Source of the DNA: a virus
IMG/VR virus record: IMGVR_UViG_3300007540_004695
Span: 1-47,359 of that record
Direction: 5' to 3' (one strand)
DNA: 47,359 nt
Shown piece after piece: positions 2,311-21,961 of this stretch. The notes beneath the pieces are model-generated. The model was not told where the DNA came from. It was given only the letters and a program-made list of their open reading frames with translations, and did no database searches. The position numbers were made by a program, and so were the translations under genes. Position 1 is the stretch's first letter; each line of letters opens with the position of its first letter.

Positions 2311-3939
2311 ATGAGTAAACAAATTTTATTTGACGATGAAGGTCGTAGAAAGATCCTAACTGGCGTTAAGACGCTAGCTAGAGCCGTTAAGGTTACGTTA
2401 GGACCTAAAGGTCGAAATGTAATGATTGAAAAGTCATTCGGTGTACCTGTTGTAACTAAAGACGGTGTTTCGGTCGCTAAGGAAATCTCATTAACAGATC
2501 CATTCGAGAACATGGGTGCACAGATGGTACATGAGGTAGCAAGTCGTACTGCTAATAGTGCTGGTGATGGTACGACAACTGCTACAGTACTCGCTGAAGC
2601 AATCTATCAAGAAGGCCTCAAGAGTGTAGCAGCTGGATCTAACCCCGTCTTTGTTAAAAGAGGTATTGATAAAGGAGTAGCTGCAGCTGTTGAGAGCATT
2701 AAAGCAATTAGCAAGCCGGTTAAAGATATGAATGACATTCGCCAGATTGCGACTGTATCTGCTAACTGGGATAAAGACGTTGGTGACATTATCGCTGATG
2801 CTATGGAGAAGGTAGGTAGTGACGGTACTATTACTGTTGAAGAAGGTTCAGGTCTAGAAACGACATTGAGTGTTGTTGAAGGTATGCAATTCGATAGAGG
2901 CTATCTAAGTCCGCACTTCGTAACAAACGAAGCAAGTATGGACGTAACATTTGATGATGCTCTAATTCTACTATGCGAGAAGAAGATTACTAATCTAAAT
3001 GAACTGTTACCACTGCTACAGCTTGTTGCTAAGAAGAATAAGCCTCTACTCATTCTCGCAGAGGATGTTGAAGGTGAAGCTCTTTCAGCACTAGTCGTAA
3101 ATAAGTTAAGAGGTACATTGAATGTCGCTGCAGTTAAGTCTCCTGGGTTTGGTGACCGACGTCGCGATTCACTTTATGACATTGCAGCACTTACAGGCGG
3201 TTCTGTTGTATCAAGTGACGATACACTTCGACTTGAGAATGTTAAACTTGAACATCTCGGAACAGCTCGGAAGGTATCAATCACTCGTGAAGCTACCACG
3301 ATTGTAGATGGTAGGGGGGTTGCGCCAGCTATTGCAGCACGTGTCGATCTAATTAAAGAAATGATTAGTCAATCCGGGTCTGATTTCGATCGTGATCAGT
3401 TGCAACAGCGGCTAGCTAAACTAACAGGTGGTATTGGTGTTATTAATGTAGGTGGTCAAACAGAACCTGAAATGAAGGAGAAGAAGGATAGAGTCGATGA
3501 TGCACTCGCAGCAACAAGAGCAGCTGTAGAAGAGGGTATTGTACCTGGTGGTGGGACTGCACTGCTTAAAGCTAAGGGTGCCATTGCTGAGGCAGCTACT
3601 CGCCTTGAAGGTGATGAAGCTATCGGTGCTCGATTAGTTGAGAAGTCTGTTGAGGCTCCAATTAGACAGTTATGTAAGAATGCTGGCGTCGATGGTTCGC
3701 AAATCGTTCTTAAGATCCTTGAATCTGGTCTAGGTTATAATGTAGCGACAGATGAGTACGTCGATTTACTTGAAGCTGGTATTGTTGACCCTACAAAGGT
3801 AACACGATCGGCTCTGCAGAATGCAGGATCAGTCGCCGGAATGCTATTAACTACTGAATGTTTAATTGTAAATGAACCCACATCAGCTAGCGCTGAAGCA
3901 CCTCATGAAATGGGCTCACCCATGGGTGGAATGATGTAA
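2311..3939 (+). CDS. groL: GroEL (Cpn60) chaperonin, phage-encoded
   Basis: A full-length 542-residue type I chaperonin. Visible hallmarks are TLGPKGRNV (29-37), the ATP-site Asp in [12 protein letters not shown] (about residue 51), GDGTTT (85-90), the apical segment [20 protein letters not shown], the SPGFGDRRR segment, [13 protein letters not shown] in the rear equatorial domain, and a methionine-rich tail (GSPMGGMM). It should form the ATP-driven double-ring folding chamber, presumably for virion proteins. No groES-like gene is present in the window, so it would need the host or a distant co-chaperonin. Upstream is an AT-rich late-promoter-like stretch (TATAAAATAATATAT) directly before the ATG and no Shine-Dalgarno sequence. 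There are no signs of decay. Confidence 0.97.
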
Positions 3940-5280: not shown

Positions 5281-5326
5281 ATATACAGTGATCACTGTAT
5301 ATTGTCCACCTTTATCACTGTATATT
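5281..5326. promoter_or_regulatory. Operator-like perfect palindrome plus a repeated half-site
   Basis: Positions 5281-5302 form a perfect 22-bp palindrome with half ATATACAGTGA. The 13-base unit ATCACTGTATATT at 5291-5303 is repeated at 5314-5326, 23 bp further on. This is the arrangement expected for a dimeric DNA-binding regulator with a second, weaker site. It lies in the 193-bp gap between the divergent genes starting at 5248 and 5442. No regulator is identified. Confidence 0.5.
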
Positions 5327-5351
5327 ACGTTTAAACATGGTAGGATATAGA

Positions 5352-5381
5352 TAAAAAAACCTCAGCTGGAAGGCTGAGGTC
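5352..5381 (-). terminator. Rho-independent terminator for leftward transcription
   Basis: Stem 5359-5366 (ACCTCAGC) pairs with 5373-5380 (GCTGAGGT) around a 6-base loop. On the minus strand the hairpin is followed by a run of T. It would stop leftward read-through from the opposite direction before the lysis genes, insulating them from the early cluster. Confidence 0.75.
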
Positions 5382-5428
5382 TTAAATGATGTAGTTTGGT
5401 AATACTAACAAAAAGTGATACATATACA

Positions 5429-5436
5429 ACTAAATA
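5429..5436 (+). promoter_or_regulatory. T4-like late promoter
   Basis: ACTAAATA, then TTAAT (5 bases), then ATG 5442. It is used here to choose the start of the following gene. Confidence 0.55.
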
Positions 5437-5441
5437 TTAAT

Positions 5442-5762
5442 ATGGTTGATCTAAACGAAAACACCAATATAAACATACCACTTCGTAACCTTTTAGCACT
5501 AATCTTTATGGTAGCAGTTAGTGTCACCGGGTATATCAATGTTACATCTAGAATTACTCAGCTTGAGCACGATCGAAATATTCGTGATGTAGAGATTGGA
5601 GCGAATACAGAGTTTCGTATTAAATGGCCGAGAGGCGAACTCGGTGCCTTGCCTGAAGATGCTGAACAAAATCTAAGATTACAGTACATCGAAAAGCACT
5701 TAGACGAAGTAGAAAAGATCACTCGTACTTTAGAGATTACGGCAGACAACGCGAAGAATTAA
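5442..5762 (+). CDS. Small membrane-anchored coiled-coil protein
   Basis: A 106-residue protein. One transmembrane helix (about 16-37, LRNLLALIFMVAVSVTGYINV) is followed by a charged helical region with coiled-coil character (ITQLEHDRNIRD; RLQYIEKHLDEVEKITRTLEI). It resembles small conserved membrane proteins I recall from T4-like marine phages, with an EFRIKWPRGELG-type middle segment. The start ATG 5442 is preferred over the upstream GTG 5415 because of the late promoter. An inner-membrane spanin-like role is possible from its topology and closeness to the lysis genes, but no homology supports it directly. Confidence 0.6.
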   Translation: MVDLNENTNINIPLRNLLALIFMVAVSVTGYINVTSRITQLEHDRNIRDVEIGANTEFRIKWPRGELGALPEDAEQNLRLQYIEKHLDEVEKITRTLEITADNAKN

Positions 5763-5769
5763 AAGATAA

Positions 5770-6036
5770 TTACTCCACCTCATATTTCGGACACTTATTG
5801 ATACTCTCTGAGAATGTATCTTCGAATCCTGCTTCATCATTACCCCGACCATTGAAACAATAATCAAATAGCCAATCGCGAATTTCGATCTTAGTCATAC
5901 CTTCAACCCATTTCTCTTTCTCGACCTTAGCCATAAGCTTATCAAAGTACTCCTCTTGAATCTTACCCAATTCCTGAATAAAGTCTCCAGTCTTAAATGC
6001 TTCGTCGTCTAGTTCTGCTTTGATTTTTACTTTCAT
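5770..6036 (-). CDS. Small acidic protein of unknown function
   Basis: An 88-residue soluble protein, rich in acidic and lysine residues, with a helical central part (EELGKIQEEYFDKLMAKVEK type). It is the last gene of the leftward cluster and ends 8 bases from the convergent gene at 5762. Its start follows the upstream gene's stop by two bases. The sequence CATAAATAATTATG spans that junction, so it may also have its own promoter. No family recognised. Confidence 0.6.
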   Translation of the reverse strand: MKVKIKAELDDEAFKTGDFIQELGKIQEEYFDKLMAKVEKEKWVEGMTKIEIRDWLFDYCFNGRGNDEAGFEDTFSESINKCPKYEVE

Positions 6037-6038
6037 AA

Positions 6039-6248
6039 TTATTTATGTCTCGGTACTTTCTTATTTGCGTCATCCATACCCATTGCTAACTCAACAACCA
6101 TACGCTCACTCCATCCAGCAAACGGACCTCGCATAAAGACTTGAGTCAGTTCGTCAGGTTTGAATCTGTCATACTTCTCAAGAGTCAACTTAACCCAATT
6201 GTCAGTCGCTTCTTGCCATGCATTTTCTTTTTCTTCGTATTCATTCAT
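6039..6248 (-). CDS. Small soluble protein of unknown function
   Basis: A 69-residue protein with many charged and aromatic residues (ENAWQEATDNWVKLTLEKYDRF) and no membrane segment or known motif. The start is the ATG 6246-6248, one base after the TAA of the upstream gene. The gene is therefore probably translated by coupling within the leftward operon. Confidence 0.6.
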   Translation of the reverse strand: MNEYEEKENAWQEATDNWVKLTLEKYDRFKPDELTQVFMRGPFAGWSERMVVELAMGMDDANKKVPRHK

Positions 6249-6249
6249 T

Positions 6250-6822
6250 TTATTTTACTGTAAGATAGTAAGCACCTGTTTTCGAATCATTATATTTGAT
6301 CTCCGTAACAGTTAAGCCTTCTAATTCCTTATGCACATCACCGAGATTTGTACCTACACCAATATATGGCCCACCACTTGGATCAACTGAGGATAACTTG
6401 CCTTCAGCGTCCATTGACATTCCAACATGATCATCATCTTCAAAGGAATACTCAACGCAATTCTTAGTTATGATAGTGAATTTTCGATCCTCATTGTATC
6501 GGCTTTTAACTACAACATATGGCCATCCAGCCCAACTGGGAGCTGCCGGCACACTAGCCCAACTGCTTTGAATTGGATCAGAGACACCTGAAGACACTAC
6601 ATCTTCATCAGAATCAAAATCAACTTCGGCTTTATCATTTGGATAAAGATGCTCTGTCATTTCTCGACCTTTTTCAAAGAAGCACTCGCCTACAGTATCT
6701 GGATGATACCCAGCGGCAATGCACAGACCGTATAACTTCTCAGTCAGGTCACTCATCCCCATTGAATCGTGTGTACTTTCGCAGGTATATGTTTCTTCGT
6801 AATTTTTTATTGTGATTTTCAT
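6250..6822 (-). CDS. Hypothetical early protein, paralogue of the gene at 7503
   Basis: A 190-residue soluble protein starting MKITIKNYEETYTCES; the longer start at 6867 is rejected because TATAAAATT lies directly before ATG 6822 and a separate small gene ends at 6827. The first ~60 residues (LTEKLYGLCIAAGYHPDTVGECFFEKG) match the start of the protein at 7503-7823 (ETAEYMYRLCISSGYDAGSVAEAFLEIG), so the two share a duplicated N-terminal domain. The C-terminal half is a different acidic, beta-rich region (EDDDHVGMSMDAEGKLSSVD). Function unknown. Confidence 0.6.
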   Translation of the reverse strand: MKITIKNYEETYTCESTHDSMGMSDLTEKLYGLCIAAGYHPDTVGECFFEKGREMTEHLYPNDKAEVDFDSDEDVVSSGVSDPIQSSWASVPAAPSWAGWPYVVVKSRYNEDRKFTIITKNCVEYSFEDDDHVGMSMDAEGKLSSVDPSGGPYIGVGTNLGDVHKELEGLTVTEIKYNDSKTGAYYLTVK

Positions 6823-6969: not shown

Positions 6970-6985
6970 ATTATATCAGTGTTCC
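6970..6985 (-). promoter_or_regulatory. GGAACAC-type cluster promoter
   Basis: GGAACACTGATATAAT, 5 bases before ATG 6964. The GGAACACTGA part also encodes the last residues (Glu-His-stop) of the upstream gene. Confidence 0.65.
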
Positions 6986-15694: not shown

Positions 15695-16246
15695 ATGGCC
15701 AACAAACGTATAACCGACCTTCCTGGAAGTCAACCTCTAGTAGGTACCGAGGCTCTTGTAACAGACCAGGAATCTAGTCTAACAGTCACGGGTATTGATA
15801 CAGTACAGACTACTCTATCTGCAATGCAAGAGTTTACTCTATCAGCTGCACCCTTTATAAACGTTACTGGTGATTCAACTTTTACAGGTACATCAGATTT
15901 TGAGGGACCAGTTACAATGCCTGGTGCACGGACGCTCGTTAACAGTCCTGGGTTTGAAGTAACTGGTGAATTTACAGTAGATGGTATATCGGAATTCTTC
16001 GGAGATGTAGAAGTCGAAAATGGCGCTGACTTGAATGTCACATCCGGGGTATTATTATCTGGAGGTGAAGATCTTGGCGACATTTTTGCCTACAAAGGTC
16101 AGTACATACAGAACGGTGGAGGTGTTGAATTTATACAAAGACTAACTCAAGCGCAATACGACGCTATAGGTATACCTGACCCGACCATACTTTACATAAT
16201 CGTAGGACAATATGAGTGTTTTAACATTTGTAACTATTGGCGATGA
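15695..16246 (+). CDS. Tail fibre protein, N-terminal attachment type
   Basis: A 183-residue virion protein. The start MANKRITDLPGSQPLVGTEA resembles the N-terminal attachment domain of T4-like fibre proteins ('ITDLP...'). A beta-rich stalk follows (TFTGTSDFEGPVTMPGAR). The ending FIQRLTQAQYDAIGIPDP plus TILYIIVG is a common C-terminal motif of phage fibre or baseplate-linked proteins. Its last 35 bases overlap the start of the FGE-like gene, so translation is probably coupled. It may be the adaptor that anchors the variable receptor-binding protein. Confidence 0.7.
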   Translation: MANKRITDLPGSQPLVGTEALVTDQESSLTVTGIDTVQTTLSAMQEFTLSAAPFINVTGDSTFTGTSDFEGPVTMPGARTLVNSPGFEVTGEFTVDGISEFFGDVEVENGADLNVTSGVLLSGGEDLGDIFAYKGQYIQNGGGVEFIQRLTQAQYDAIGIPDPTILYIIVGQYECFNICNYWR

Positions 16247-18044
16247 GGGTAACGCTGCTGATACCACTGGCTATGGTGATGTATCATATGCATATGATAT
16301 CAGTAAGTTTGAAATTACCGAGGGCCAGATATCTGCTTATAATGCTGACCCTATAAACAGTACTCGGCAGATCGCAGTAGGTGGCAGTGGTACTGATAAA
16401 CCAGCTTTAAGCATAAGCTGGAACGAAGCTGCTCGTTATGTTAACTGGCTTAATATAAATGATGGAGCTCAACCAGCGTATAATTTTACTACATCAGGAG
16501 TTAATGATAATATTACTCTTTGGAGTAGCGTTGAAGCTTGGCAAACCGACGGCGAAAATCTATTCAGACATAAAGATGCAAAGTATTTCCTACCAAGTGA
16601 AGATGAGTGGTATAAAGCAGCTTATTATAAAAGTGGTAGTACTAACGCTGGTTATTGGTTATATCCAACAGGATCAGATACTGCTCCAACACCAGTAGCT
16701 TCTGGAACTACCGTTGGTACAGCTGTTTATGATGGTCAGAGCGCTCCTGCTGATGTCGATCAAGCTGGCGGTCTCAGTCCTTATGGTACAATGGGTCAAG
16801 GTGGTAACGCAAATGAGTGGAATGAAACTACTGCAGATGGTAATAATGATTTGGCTACCGGGTCGCGGACGCAGCGCGGCGGCATCTGGGTCAACAACTC
16901 CAGCTCCTTGCAGTCGACCACCCGCAGCACCAAGTCCCCTGCCTTCGAGGGCGGTGGCACCAGTTTTCGTATAGCGAAGGTGTCAGTTCCAGCACCTCCG
17001 GTGGAGTTAACGTTTGTAACTATTGACGATGTCGGTAACGCTGCTGATACCACTAGTTATGGTGATGTTAGTTATACATATCAGATTGGTAAGTATGAAA
17101 TTACTGAGGGTCAGATATCTGCTTATAATGCTGATCCTATAAATTCTACACGACAGATTACAACAGATAATCGTGGTACTAATAAACCAGCGACGAGTAT
17201 AACTTGGAACGAATGCGCTAGGTATGTTAACTGGCTTAATATAAAAGAAGGTCTCCAACCTGCATACTACTTCACTACATCAGGAGTTAATGATGATATT
17301 ACTCTTTGGAGTAGTGGGGAAGCATGGCAGCTTGGTGGTGAGAACTTATATCGACATAAAGATGCAAAGTATTTCCTACCAAGTGAAGATGAGTGGTATA
17401 AAGCGGCTTATTATAAGAGCGTAGGTGTTAATGCCGGTTACTGGTTATACCCAACAGGATCAGATACTGCTCCAACAGCAGTAGCTTCTGGAACAACAAC
17501 TGAGACAGCTGTTTTTGATTTTGTTTCAAGTGATCCTGCTGATGTCGATCAAGCTGGCGGTCTTAGTCCTTATGGTACAATGGGTCAAGGTGGTAACGCA
17601 GATGAGTGGATTGAAAGTTCCGGAGATGGTAATAATGATTCGGCTGTTGAGTCGCGGGTGCTCCGCGGCGGTTCCTGGGATACCGTCGCCGCCTTCATGC
17701 AGTCGCCCAACCGCGACGCCAGCAGCCCGGCCTTCGAGTTCGACTTCCTCGGTTTTCGTGTCGCATCGTTCGTTCCTCCTGTACCGTTTTCTTCGAACAC
17801 ATCACCGGTCTTAAATTTAGCAGATAATCTCAAAATGGGATCTACCCAAGTAACAGCAGCATACTTGGATTCTGTTCGAGTATGGCCTATCAATGATGGT
17901 ATCTGGCGTTTTGACACTCCTTCACCCGGTACTACAATTACAGGGTTCAAAATAACCACATCGAGTGGTGGTGTATTCGTCGATTGGGGAGACGGTAATA
18001 CTGATTTTGTAAATTCAAATCAATCTATAAATAAAACGTATTAA
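16212..18044 (+). CDS. Receptor-binding protein with two FGE-like lectin domains and two variable repeats
   Basis: A 610-residue protein made of two tandem formylglycine-generating-enzyme-like (sulfatase-modifying factor, C-type-lectin fold) domains, about residues 1-262 and 263-525, with a PKD-like tail (SSGGVFVDWGDGNTDF). Each domain has the family blocks FEITEGQISAYNA, WNEAARYVNWLN, FLPSEDEWYKAAYY and LSPYGTMGQGGNA. It then ends in an R-G-G-x-W ... R ... F-R segment that is GC-rich and hypervariable, matching the variable region of diversity-generating-retroelement targets. The domains are known targets of such systems in phages; the reverse transcriptase is not in this window. The protein ends abruptly after INKTY, where PKD domains normally continue. 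The likely role is variable adhesion to host surface ligands. Confidence 0.85.
   Translation: MSVLTFVTIGDEGNAADTTGYGDVSYAYDISKFEITEGQISAYNADPINSTRQIAVGGSGTDKPALSISWNEAARYVNWLNINDGAQPAYNFTTSGVNDNITLWSSVEAWQTDGENLFRHKDAKYFLPSEDEWYKAAYYKSGSTNAGYWLYPTGSDTAPTPVASGTTVGTAVYDGQSAPADVDQAGGLSPYGTMGQGGNANEWNETTADGNNDLATGSRTQRGGIWVNNSSSLQSTTRSTKSPAFEGGGTSFRIAKVSVPAPPVELTFVTIDDVGNAADTTSYGDVSYTYQIGKYEITEGQISAYNADPINSTRQITTDNRGTNKPATSITWNECARYVNWLNIKEGLQPAYYFTTSGVNDDITLWSSGEAWQLGGENLYRHKDAKYFLPSEDEWYKAAYYKSVGVNAGYWLYPTGSDTAPTAVASGTTTETAVFDFVSSDPADVDQAGGLSPYGTMGQGGNADEWIESSGDGNNDSAVESRVLRGGSWDTVAAFMQSPNRDASSPAFEFDFLGFRVASFVPPVPFSSNTSPVLNLADNLKMGSTQVTAAYLDSVRVWPINDGIWRFDTPSPGTTITGFKITTSSGGVFVDWGDGNTDFVNSNQSINKTY
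16863..16970 (+). repeat. Variable repeat 1 (DGR-type) of the receptor-binding protein
   Basis: A GC-rich island in AT-rich DNA. Conserved anchors CGC GGC GGC, TGG, CAG TCG, CGC, GCC TTC GAG and TTT CGT alternate with NNC codons (GTC AAC AAC TCC AGC TCC; GGC GGT GGC ACC). This is the layout expected when AAC codons of a template repeat are altered at adenines. Confidence 0.75.
17652..17759 (+). repeat. Variable repeat 2 (DGR-type) of the receptor-binding protein
   Basis: Same length and anchors as repeat 1, but the variable blocks read GAT ACC GTC GCC GCC TTC and TTC GAC TTC CTC. In my hand alignment of the 36 codons about 36 bases differ between the two repeats, about 30 of them at codon positions 1 or 2. 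Confidence 0.75.
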
Positions 18045-18049
18045 TAGCT

Positions 18050-18787
18050 ATGGCAACAATAATAAATTTAAATCCAGAGGATGGCCCAGAAGCTGTTACT
18101 GGAATCGATTGCGGGACATCCTCTCCGAGACTTAGTGGTACGATTGATGTATCTGCTTTTGAAAATTTACAAGATCTTACATGTGATGGTAACGATATAA
18201 CGGAAATAGCTGGTTTTTATGATAACCCTAACATAAAGAGAGTGTTAGCAGCGAACAACAAACTTACTGGGTCTATCCCTGATTTGACCGGTATGACTAG
18301 TATAGAGCGTTATTGGGTAATGGTAAATGAACACACCGGTTCCTTCCCGAATATAAATGGATTATCTAACTTAGGACTTATAAATGTCGGTGCCAATAAT
18401 CTCACCGGCACTTTACCTGCAGACTTACAATCACTAGGAGTACCAAAGCTATTTCGATTTAATATATACGGCAACTCCTTCACCGGCACCCTTTCAGATT
18501 GTACTGGTATGAATAACCTAGAGTACGTTTTAGCTGATAATAATAACTTGACTGATTTTACCGGTGGAGTCGAACCTAGTTTATATAGGTTTTTTATAAA
18601 CAACAATAACCTTACAGAAACGGCGGTAGATAATATTCTTCAAGCTTTTGTCGACGCTAATAGAACCACTAACATGAGTATCGCCATAATGAACCTAGGT
18701 GGTAGTGGAAATGCTGCTCCATCAGCAGCAGGCGTTACAAACAAAAACACCCTTATTAGTAGAGGGTGGTCCGTAACTACAAACTAA
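18050..18787 (+). CDS. Leucine-rich-repeat fibre-associated protein
   Basis: A 245-residue protein with repeats of plant/extracellular LRR type (ANNKLTGSIPDLTGMTSIER; GANNLTGTLPADLQSLGVPK; ADNNNLTDF; NNNNLTETAVDNIL). The start MATIINLNPEDGPEAVTGID comes 5 bases after the stop of the FGE-like gene. In related phage proteins a PKD domain runs directly into such LRRs, so this may be the detached C-terminal part of a once longer fibre. It ends in a TNKNTLISRGWSVTTN cap common in LRR fibre proteins. A role in adhesion is inferred. Confidence 0.7.
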   Translation: MATIINLNPEDGPEAVTGIDCGTSSPRLSGTIDVSAFENLQDLTCDGNDITEIAGFYDNPNIKRVLAANNKLTGSIPDLTGMTSIERYWVMVNEHTGSFPNINGLSNLGLINVGANNLTGTLPADLQSLGVPKLFRFNIYGNSFTGTLSDCTGMNNLEYVLADNNNLTDFTGGVEPSLYRFFINNNNLTETAVDNILQAFVDANRTTNMSIAIMNLGGSGNAAPSAAGVTNKNTLISRGWSVTTN

Positions 18788-19993: not shown

Positions 19994-21961
19994 ATGAGCA
20001 AAGGAACGTCTATATACCATTTCAGTAGTACAGTCTTATACAATGAAGTATTTGATCCTAGAGAAGATCTGATTGTATCCTTAGTACGTACGAATGATGA
20101 GCAAGAAGATCTCGGATCATTGAGCCTCCAAGGAGGTTCTTTCGGAGGCAGCTTATTAGAGCTTGAACCTACACGTCAGAATCCGACAGGTACACTTGGT
20201 TATAATTTCTCTAATGAGTTTGAGAACCTATGTTTATATCTCTTTGATGCATCAGTAGATACGTCGAACTTTTCCGGCATTGACGGTCCCTCACGTAGCA
20301 CGGCAATTTCTGCTTTTGATGTTGCTCACGTACCTGGTAATATTTTCCTAAGCGGTGATAACCCCGTACCGAATAGGTATTATAGGAGTTTTGGAACGGT
20401 TCCACTGCCACCTGCAACCCCAACAGTATTATATGATACGAGTGGTACACCAGTAGTTTCCATAGCAACAGATATACCAGATAACTGGAACACTAGTGGC
20501 TCATCTTACCCGACTGCGACTCGCTTAGTAATTGGAACAAGCTGTACTGTAGTTGGCGTGCAAGCCTTCAACGCGGCGATAAACGTAGCTTTCGGGGTAA
20601 ATTCTACGGAACTACTAATACCTTATAGTGTAACTGATGTTGGTACTCAAGCCTTTCAAGGTACGGGATTTACATCAATAAGTTTAGATAGTGGATTGGT
20701 AAATATAGGAGATGCAGCATTTTACGAAATGGAGAAGCTAGAAGGTGAAGTAATAATTCCTGAAGGTGTTATAACTATTGGTCAAGCGGCCTTTGCAACC
20801 TCTGGCACTCTTGACGACGGGGGCGGTATCACATCGATAACTATTCCAAGTAGTGTAACAAGTATTGGAGCAAATGCGTTTGCGCAGCCGACTGCCGGTT
20901 TCCCAGGTGATCGAGGCAGCGTGCTAGCCTTAACGAGGGTTAATTGCTATGTGAATAAATCAATTGTTGATGCAGGAGTTAATTCACTAGGTGGAAATAA
21001 CGGCTTAACAGAGATTCATGTTCGTCGGAATGACTCTTCTTGGACTGCTGGTCCTGGTCAGACTGCTGGCGGGTTAACCTTATTCGTGATTAAAGATTTA
21101 GAGGACTCACCGGTAAGTGCGGGGTGGAATGCAGATACTGCATGGGTTGACTCAGCCGGTACTTCTGAATTCAGATATACTTACAACGATTCTAAGTATG
21201 GTAGACCTCAAAATGGGTGGGAGTTTAGATACACGACAGCCGAACCAGGTAGCAGCACAAACTGCTTCTATACTACAGTCTCTTCTGCTAGTGGTTTATT
21301 TCCATGGGAGATACCAAGTTGGTACGTTACCAATAACAGCTCTAATACATATGCTCTTTCTACAGCTAGTACAGTCGATTTAACATTATCAGGATTTACA
21401 ACCAAATATGGTCTGTCGACAGACAATGCCTATGAACTCGATGGGCCTGGGGCTAGCGTTTTAACGGACCTAACTCAACCAGCTATAAGATTGACTGACC
21501 CTACATCTTTCGGTTCATTCCTATCCGGTGCATTAGTATTAGCTTGTGTAGATAACAACGGAGCTTTTAGTTTATCAGGTAGTCAAGATGGATTTTATAA
21601 TAGCGGTACAGAGACATTATCATCAAAGGTATTCAGTGTTAGGGCATTATCTGCATTACAGAGCACTAGATCAGCAGAGTTATGTACGTTTGACTTTAAA
21701 GGTGCTGTTGTACCTGAAGATGGTTATTCAACTATCGATGATAGATGGAAACTTCTAAGAGTTGGATTTAAACGAAATCTACAAGACGTCGTACTGTATG
21801 TACGCGAAAATGGTATATATGAAACTCAACAAGTCTTCAGTACAGGCTTTAACCTCGAACAACTGCCAGCTGGTATTAAGGTAGGTATTTCATATTCAGG
21901 TCACATGCCTATGGAAATTCAAAACCTAACCATTAATGGTATATTGTCATCGGCGTCATAA
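19994..21961 (+). CDS. Tail fibre protein with BspA-like LRR_5 domain
   Basis: A 655-residue protein. After an N-terminal ~140-residue virion domain, residues about 170-320 form LRR_5 repeats (YSVTDVGTQAFQGTGFTSIS; IPEGVITIGQAAFA; IPSSVTSIGANAF) of the same family as the partial gene at 2-547. A LamG/ConA-like region (FDFKGAVVPEDGYSTIDDRW; AGIKVGISYSGHMPMEIQNL) makes up the C-terminus. The arrangement suggests a modular receptor-binding fibre. The next fibre gene begins 11 bases after its stop. Confidence 0.7.
   Translation: MSKGTSIYHFSSTVLYNEVFDPREDLIVSLVRTNDEQEDLGSLSLQGGSFGGSLLELEPTRQNPTGTLGYNFSNEFENLCLYLFDASVDTSNFSGIDGPSRSTAISAFDVAHVPGNIFLSGDNPVPNRYYRSFGTVPLPPATPTVLYDTSGTPVVSIATDIPDNWNTSGSSYPTATRLVIGTSCTVVGVQAFNAAINVAFGVNSTELLIPYSVTDVGTQAFQGTGFTSISLDSGLVNIGDAAFYEMEKLEGEVIIPEGVITIGQAAFATSGTLDDGGGITSITIPSSVTSIGANAFAQPTAGFPGDRGSVLALTRVNCYVNKSIVDAGVNSLGGNNGLTEIHVRRNDSSWTAGPGQTAGGLTLFVIKDLEDSPVSAGWNADTAWVDSAGTSEFRYTYNDSKYGRPQNGWEFRYTTAEPGSSTNCFYTTVSSASGLFPWEIPSWYVTNNSSNTYALSTASTVDLTLSGFTTKYGLSTDNAYELDGPGASVLTDLTQPAIRLTDPTSFGSFLSGALVLACVDNNGAFSLSGSQDGFYNSGTETLSSKVFSVRALSALQSTRSAELCTFDFKGAVVPEDGYSTIDDRWKLLRVGFKRNLQDVVLYVRENGIYETQQVFSTGFNLEQLPAGIKVGISYSGHMPMEIQNLTINGILSSAS

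Follow-up and report, generated by a model that had tools for sequence, protein, structure and literature searches.

Where do two short GC-rich islands in one phage protein come from, and does the phage that bears them also carry the machinery that wrote them? The question is raised by IMG/VR record IMGVR_UViG_3300007540_004695, analysed over its entire length of 47,359 bases (hereafter the window), which is a fragment of a larger phage genome and has a GC content of 40%. The window derives from a marine virus of bacteria that, judged from its proteins, is a distant relative of the T4-like phages. One of its genes encodes a 610-residue protein with two tandem FGE domains, each of which ends in an island resembling the variable repeat (VR) of a diversity-generating retroelement (DGR). 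Both islands belong to the DGR type of variable repeat, and a DGR origin is very likely for them. Our preferred reading, with a probability of about 0.68, is that they are orphan DGR-written modules moved by recombination, the writer of which resides in another element and is active now or was so recently. The gene and its parts are arranged as follows.

16212..18044, plus strand: FGE gene holding both islands; 610 aa, comprising a tandem pair of FGE-sulfatase/C-type-lectin domains followed by a short C-terminal segment
16227..16979, plus strand: FGE domain 1, 74% identical to domain 2
16863..16979, plus strand: Island 1 (W1), DGR-type variable repeat, with a 32-codon core at 16875-16970
17013..17768, plus strand: FGE domain 2, matched by profile PF03781
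17652..17768, plus strand: Island 2 (W2), DGR-type variable repeat, with its core at 17664-17759
17769..18044, plus strand: C-terminal segment of the FGE gene

Profile search showed that PF03781 (FGE-sulfatase) matches the protein in two stretches (E=2e-30), and that the closest solved relative is TvpA, the DGR variable protein of Treponema denticola (E=1.1e-10). According to these matches, the variable repeats are carried by a C-type-lectin/FGE fold. An AlphaFold model of domain 2 had a mean pLDDT of 51 and was discarded.

Each FGE domain ends in an island of ~117 bp, whose cassette begins at TCGCGG (16863 and 17652) and whose GC content is 0.53-0.72 per 40 bp, compared to about 0.40 in the surroundings; in both place and composition the islands agree with an earlier sequence-only reading of this DNA. 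The cores of W1 and W2 differ at 32 bases over 32 codons, not at about 36 as that reading had counted, and the excess at first and second codon positions that it had noticed is reproduced, with 13, 14 and 5 differences at the three positions, respectively, and thus 27 at positions 1-2. For the remaining 217 aligned codons of the two domains, the counts of differences are 32, 33 and 57 by codon position (positions 1-2 versus 3, island versus rest of the domains, Fisher p=0.0012). Among the anchors supposed to be fixed, P-A-F-E does not hold as a whole: its two middle codons vary, whereas P and, for the most part, E are found again in relatives. Island 1 is slightly decayed, as AAG, CCT, GGT and AGT depart from the template skeleton given below.

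Complete DGRs among relatives and the adenine imprint

Island scans and profile search uncovered complete DGRs whose targets are FGE proteins, and the closest non-marine relatives of the window's FGE domain are targets of such DGRs. Three of these loci in IMG/VR, L074, L122 and L152, share with the window the repeat architecture, the codon register and the AAC-rich design, but differ in that a reverse transcriptase (RT) and a template repeat (TR) adjoin the target within GC-rich loci (~0.6), accompanied in L074 and L122 by an accessory gene. L074 encodes Avd (NCBIfam DivGenRetAVD, above cut-off) and an RT with the motif YVDD, next to a TR with AAC in the variable codons; 49 of the 51 differences of three VRs on contigs without RT (L030, L032 and L033) fall at adenines of this TR. 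In L122, which combines RT and TR with an HRDC accessory gene, the differences of its own VR lie at TR adenines in 22 of 22 cases. For L152, which has an RT and a TR and shares 52% identity with the window in the FGE domain, the corresponding figure is 22/23. The HRDC-domain gene precedes the RT gene in the L122 DGR (L122:6655-7125).

Island 2 ends at its 3' side in TCGGTTTTCGTGTCGC, which is identical to the 3' end of both VR and TR in the complete L122 DGR. These 16 bp in common are a candidate initiation-of-homing sequence; the same 16-bp 3' end is also present in L121, L123 and L124, in sequences without the repeat.

Moreover, L074 can be compared with the syntenic contigs L030 and L033. 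At the position where L074 has a 1.8-kb avd-RT-TR segment (L074:279-2091), only 7-11 bases by alignment (L030:4695-4703 and L033:3804-3816) separate the end of the target gene from the S49 peptidase region. Although the flanks are only 77-88% identical, the repeat of L030 agrees with the L074 template wherever the latter has a base other than A; in that of L033, too, all or nearly all such bases match. A second candidate case of targets that are orphan or served in trans is provided by L030 and L033, contigs that are short and whose RT may lie elsewhere.

A protein search yielded 53 loci in viral contigs, among which several T4-like phages have islands of the same skeleton with nearly fixed third positions: CGC GGC GGC NNC TGG NNC NNC NNC NCC NNC NNC NTG CAG TCG NNC NNC CGC NNC(x4) CC. 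Over all pairs of five islands, we found 138, 133 and 29 differences at the first, second and third codon positions, respectively, corresponding to 173 non-synonymous and 17 synonymous codons. Variable columns of these islands coincide with adenines of the L122 TR in 30 of 45 cases, compared to 1 of 51 invariant columns (p=1.2e-12), and with adenines of the L074 TR in 30/45 versus 2/51 cases (p=1.7e-11); for W1 and W2 alone, template-adenine columns make up 21/32 of the differing and 10/64 of the identical ones (p=1.6e-6), all three tests being indirect in that the templates come from independent complete DGRs and not from the window's phage. In addition, A occurs at 1 of 51 invariant island columns versus 32 of 136 identical positions just upstream.

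The silent sites tell the same. The islands of L009 and L010 differ at 12, 13 and 0 sites by codon position, whereas the 148 codons upstream differ at 30, 29 and 41, as measured on L014 and L023, which bear the same two islands; silent sites are thus constant in islands where adjacent silent sites diverge. The pattern is that of a DGR target gene, in which a short C-terminal repeat varies at template-adenine positions only. The imprint that retrohoming of this kind, adenine-directed and with an AAC-rich template, would leave had been proposed from the letters of the window, and is borne out by variable columns that fall on independent TR adenines. Accordingly worded as a mechanism, adenine-mutagenic retrohoming would have written both islands from an AAC-rich template of ~100-120 bp with the putative skeleton CGC GGC GGC AAC TGG AAC AAC AAC NCC AAC AAC NTG CAG TCG ANC AAC CGC AAC(x4) CCG NNC AAC GAG AAC AAC AAC NTC GGT TTT CGT. 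In the FGE/C-type-lectin domains of the protein, a probable tail adhesin, the islands occupy the C-terminal end, which presumably faces the ligand.

The search for a reverse transcriptase and a template

The RT profile PF00078 has no match in the window, i.e. over the 16 kb before and the 29 kb after the gene, nor in 44 records of relatives and 12 further records (56 in total), with Bordetella phage BPP-1 and L074 both detected as positive controls. A DGR-RT profile used without filters likewise gave no match in the window, G014, G001, G002, G052 or G059, and Avd (PF22296) is missing from the records of the window group, the BPP-1 and L074 controls again being positive. The template skeleton does not occur outside the FGE islands in the window and its kin. 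Skeleton scans of IMG/VR returned the FGE islands themselves and one chance match, L073, which lies in another gene and was rejected as a template. The deduced template has no match in the phage and plasmid collections, and the FGE protein found none among phages. A pattern scan of sampled GTDB genomes gave seven matches, all of which are unrelated or ordinary FGE-family genes and not templates.

The more distant relative G014 extends this search to a whole genome. It is T4-like, with portal, capsid, terminase and polymerase genes of T4 type, and comprises 170,716 bases, the ends of which share a KKKST repeat inside one gene. Contig L148 spans the junction with 99.5% and 100% identity, and runs through the joined ends, from which we conclude that G014 is complete. 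It possesses a single, pristine island at 149908, and the complete genome has neither RT nor template, a result that is decisive for G014's own lineage. Altogether, RT, template repeat and Avd, by which a complete DGR is recognized, are lacking from the window and the relatives searched. The proposal of a DGR run by this very phage on two ligand sites at once is therefore not upheld, and the finding that the sequence-only reading had named as its own refutation, no RT or template in the complete genome and co-occurring elements, is partly in hand, for the window, its relatives and complete G014.

Module exchange and rival explanations

The closely related L014 and L023 are nearly identical around the gene, except for a differing block of ~540 bp that stops sharply at the 3' edge of the island; the differences between L018 and L020, and between G001 and G002, stop at the same edge. 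Sequences past GFRVA differ between modules and the 3' end is conserved, as would be expected if unequal homologous recombination placed its crossover there. As to the proposed comparison of relatives, variable columns do lie at template adenines, but between close strains it is the FGE backbone that changes: L014 has the same islands as L012 and L013 despite about 50-60 differing sites elsewhere. Many differences of L013 from L014 are patches in this backbone, dense at L014:11078-11304, which read as short-tract gene conversion. Third-position differences number none between L009 and L010, five between W1 and W2, and many in the islands of L002, suggesting an older date of writing, or drift since then, for the window copies.

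Since enzyme and template were found neither in the window and the 56 records nor in complete G014, the diversity apparently originates elsewhere and spreads by recombination. In the preferred reading, the DGR core (RT, Avd and template) is apparently not part of this phage lineage, and already written FGE modules would circulate among T4-like marine phages via homologous recombination, with the 3' crossover probably located in the conserved GGTTTTCGTGTCGC. Imported modules would then drift, in keeping with the few decayed sites of the window islands. The writer, in another element or in the host, may act in trans or may have supplied the module donors. A bolder version, less likely than not, is that lytic T4-like marine phages retain DGR-ready target repeats in tail adhesins but outsource mutagenesis, such that these islands are rewritten in trans by the RT and template of a host, prophage or co-infecting phage, and the new versions spread among phages by recombination.

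Several observations weigh against the reading of recombined orphan modules. In CAG, the A is invariant across these islands; either selection maintains this base or the template rule is imperfect. G014 is not of the same species as the window phage, and the window is a 47-kb fragment, so an RT may lie elsewhere in its own genome. In addition, a donor with an RT and the exact skeleton was not found anywhere searched.

An ordinary DGR acting in cis, with its own RT and template in the unseen part of the genome and two remote targets, would account for the DGR imprint; the bulk of the window phage's genome is unseen, and remote targets are known and are missed by short contigs (PMC8144416). Nevertheless, we regard it as unlikely, since an RT is lacking not only from the 16 kb upstream and 29 kb downstream but also from close kin (G001, G002, G052 and G059) and complete G014, and since IMG/VR holds no template skeleton beyond the islands themselves. 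The islands might also be remnants drifting apart after a former cis DGR lost its RT and template. Decay is indeed graded, from pristine (L009, L010) through W1, W2 and L001 to heavy (L002, L003), and isolates of T. denticola without RT and TR retain FGE target genes that were interpreted as remnants (PMC4891356). Yet the pristine silent sites of G014 and L010, despite diverged backbones, argue for recent writing or import, and no trace of RT or template exists in any relative searched, making such a loss improbable. Positive selection combined with gene conversion among FGE modules from GC-rich donors, without any retroelement, draws on gene conversion and module swaps that are plainly visible, as well as on the two codons between P and E that W1 and W2 alone have in common. 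It leaves unexplained the constancy of silent third positions next to first and second ones that are saturated, the scarcity of A at invariant columns and the match to independent template adenines, and we consider it very improbable.

RT-less DGR target genes are already known in T. denticola, where TvpA (PDB 2y3c) is likewise an FGE/C-type-lectin target with a C-terminal variable repeat. Compared to T. denticola, in which the target resides on a bacterial chromosome, the window has two tandem repeats in one protein of a T4-like marine phage, with no RT-bearing relative of the lineage found. The Mtd protein of BPP-1 resembles the FGE protein as a phage tail receptor protein with a C-terminal repeat varying at template adenines (PMC12875486), but in BPP-1 the RT, Avd and TR are all present in cis. 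DGR cassettes with two target genes are also known from phages (PMC10743442), one template serving both variable repeats; those targets are separate genes of a complete cassette, whereas here two repeats share one protein and no cassette was found. A limited search of the open-licence literature turned up no description of tandem orphan repeats within a single protein of a T4-like phage. DGR surveys locate targets beside an RT, so that orphan or trans-served targets escape them, as the 2021 global survey states for remote ones (PMC8144416). That a complete phage genome has a pristine DGR-type repeat while lacking an RT suggests that diversity in tail adhesins may belong to a community rather than to one genome.

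The tail cluster and other genes of the window

The FGE gene is flanked by two genes of the tail cluster.

15695..16246, plus strand: fibre protein with a Phage_tail_C tip motif, upstream of the FGE gene and overlapping its start
18050..18787, plus strand: leucine-rich-repeat protein of the same tail cluster, downstream of the FGE gene

The position of the FGE gene directly behind that of the Phage_tail_C protein fits a tail adhesin, and the 610-aa protein is probably one, which may bind a receptor. The relative G059 is syntenic with the window, with 82% nucleotide identity over 14.6 kb, and is devoid of either FGE domain while keeping both the fibre gene before them and the C-terminal segment after them; the edges of this gap lie at window 16219 (G059 43282) and window 17811 (G059 43277). 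A BspA-type leucine-rich-repeat protein is encoded in the same tail cluster at 19994-21961, and similar tandem repeats also occur at 86-547.

A baseplate wedge protein encoded in the window matches phrog_219, and the best matches of the window to phage records are wedge proteins of 24-29% identity, mostly from cyanophages. The phage also carries genes for a GroEL chaperonin (phrog_5725, 2311-3939) and a sulfotransferase (PF13469, 591-1388). Between the window and G002, a patch of 98.7% identity (5316-6436) adjoins stretches of 80-90%, which points to mosaic exchange between these phages. In addition, the motif ATTATANNNGTGTTCC has 12 copies in the window with at most one mismatch, compared to 0.1 expected, at 6970, 8235, 8832, 8924, 10770, 11522, 11750, 12116, 15358, 15434, 15620 and 41825, mostly between minus-strand genes; reading GGAACACNNNTATAAT on the minus strand, it may represent a phage promoter that includes a TATAAT box.
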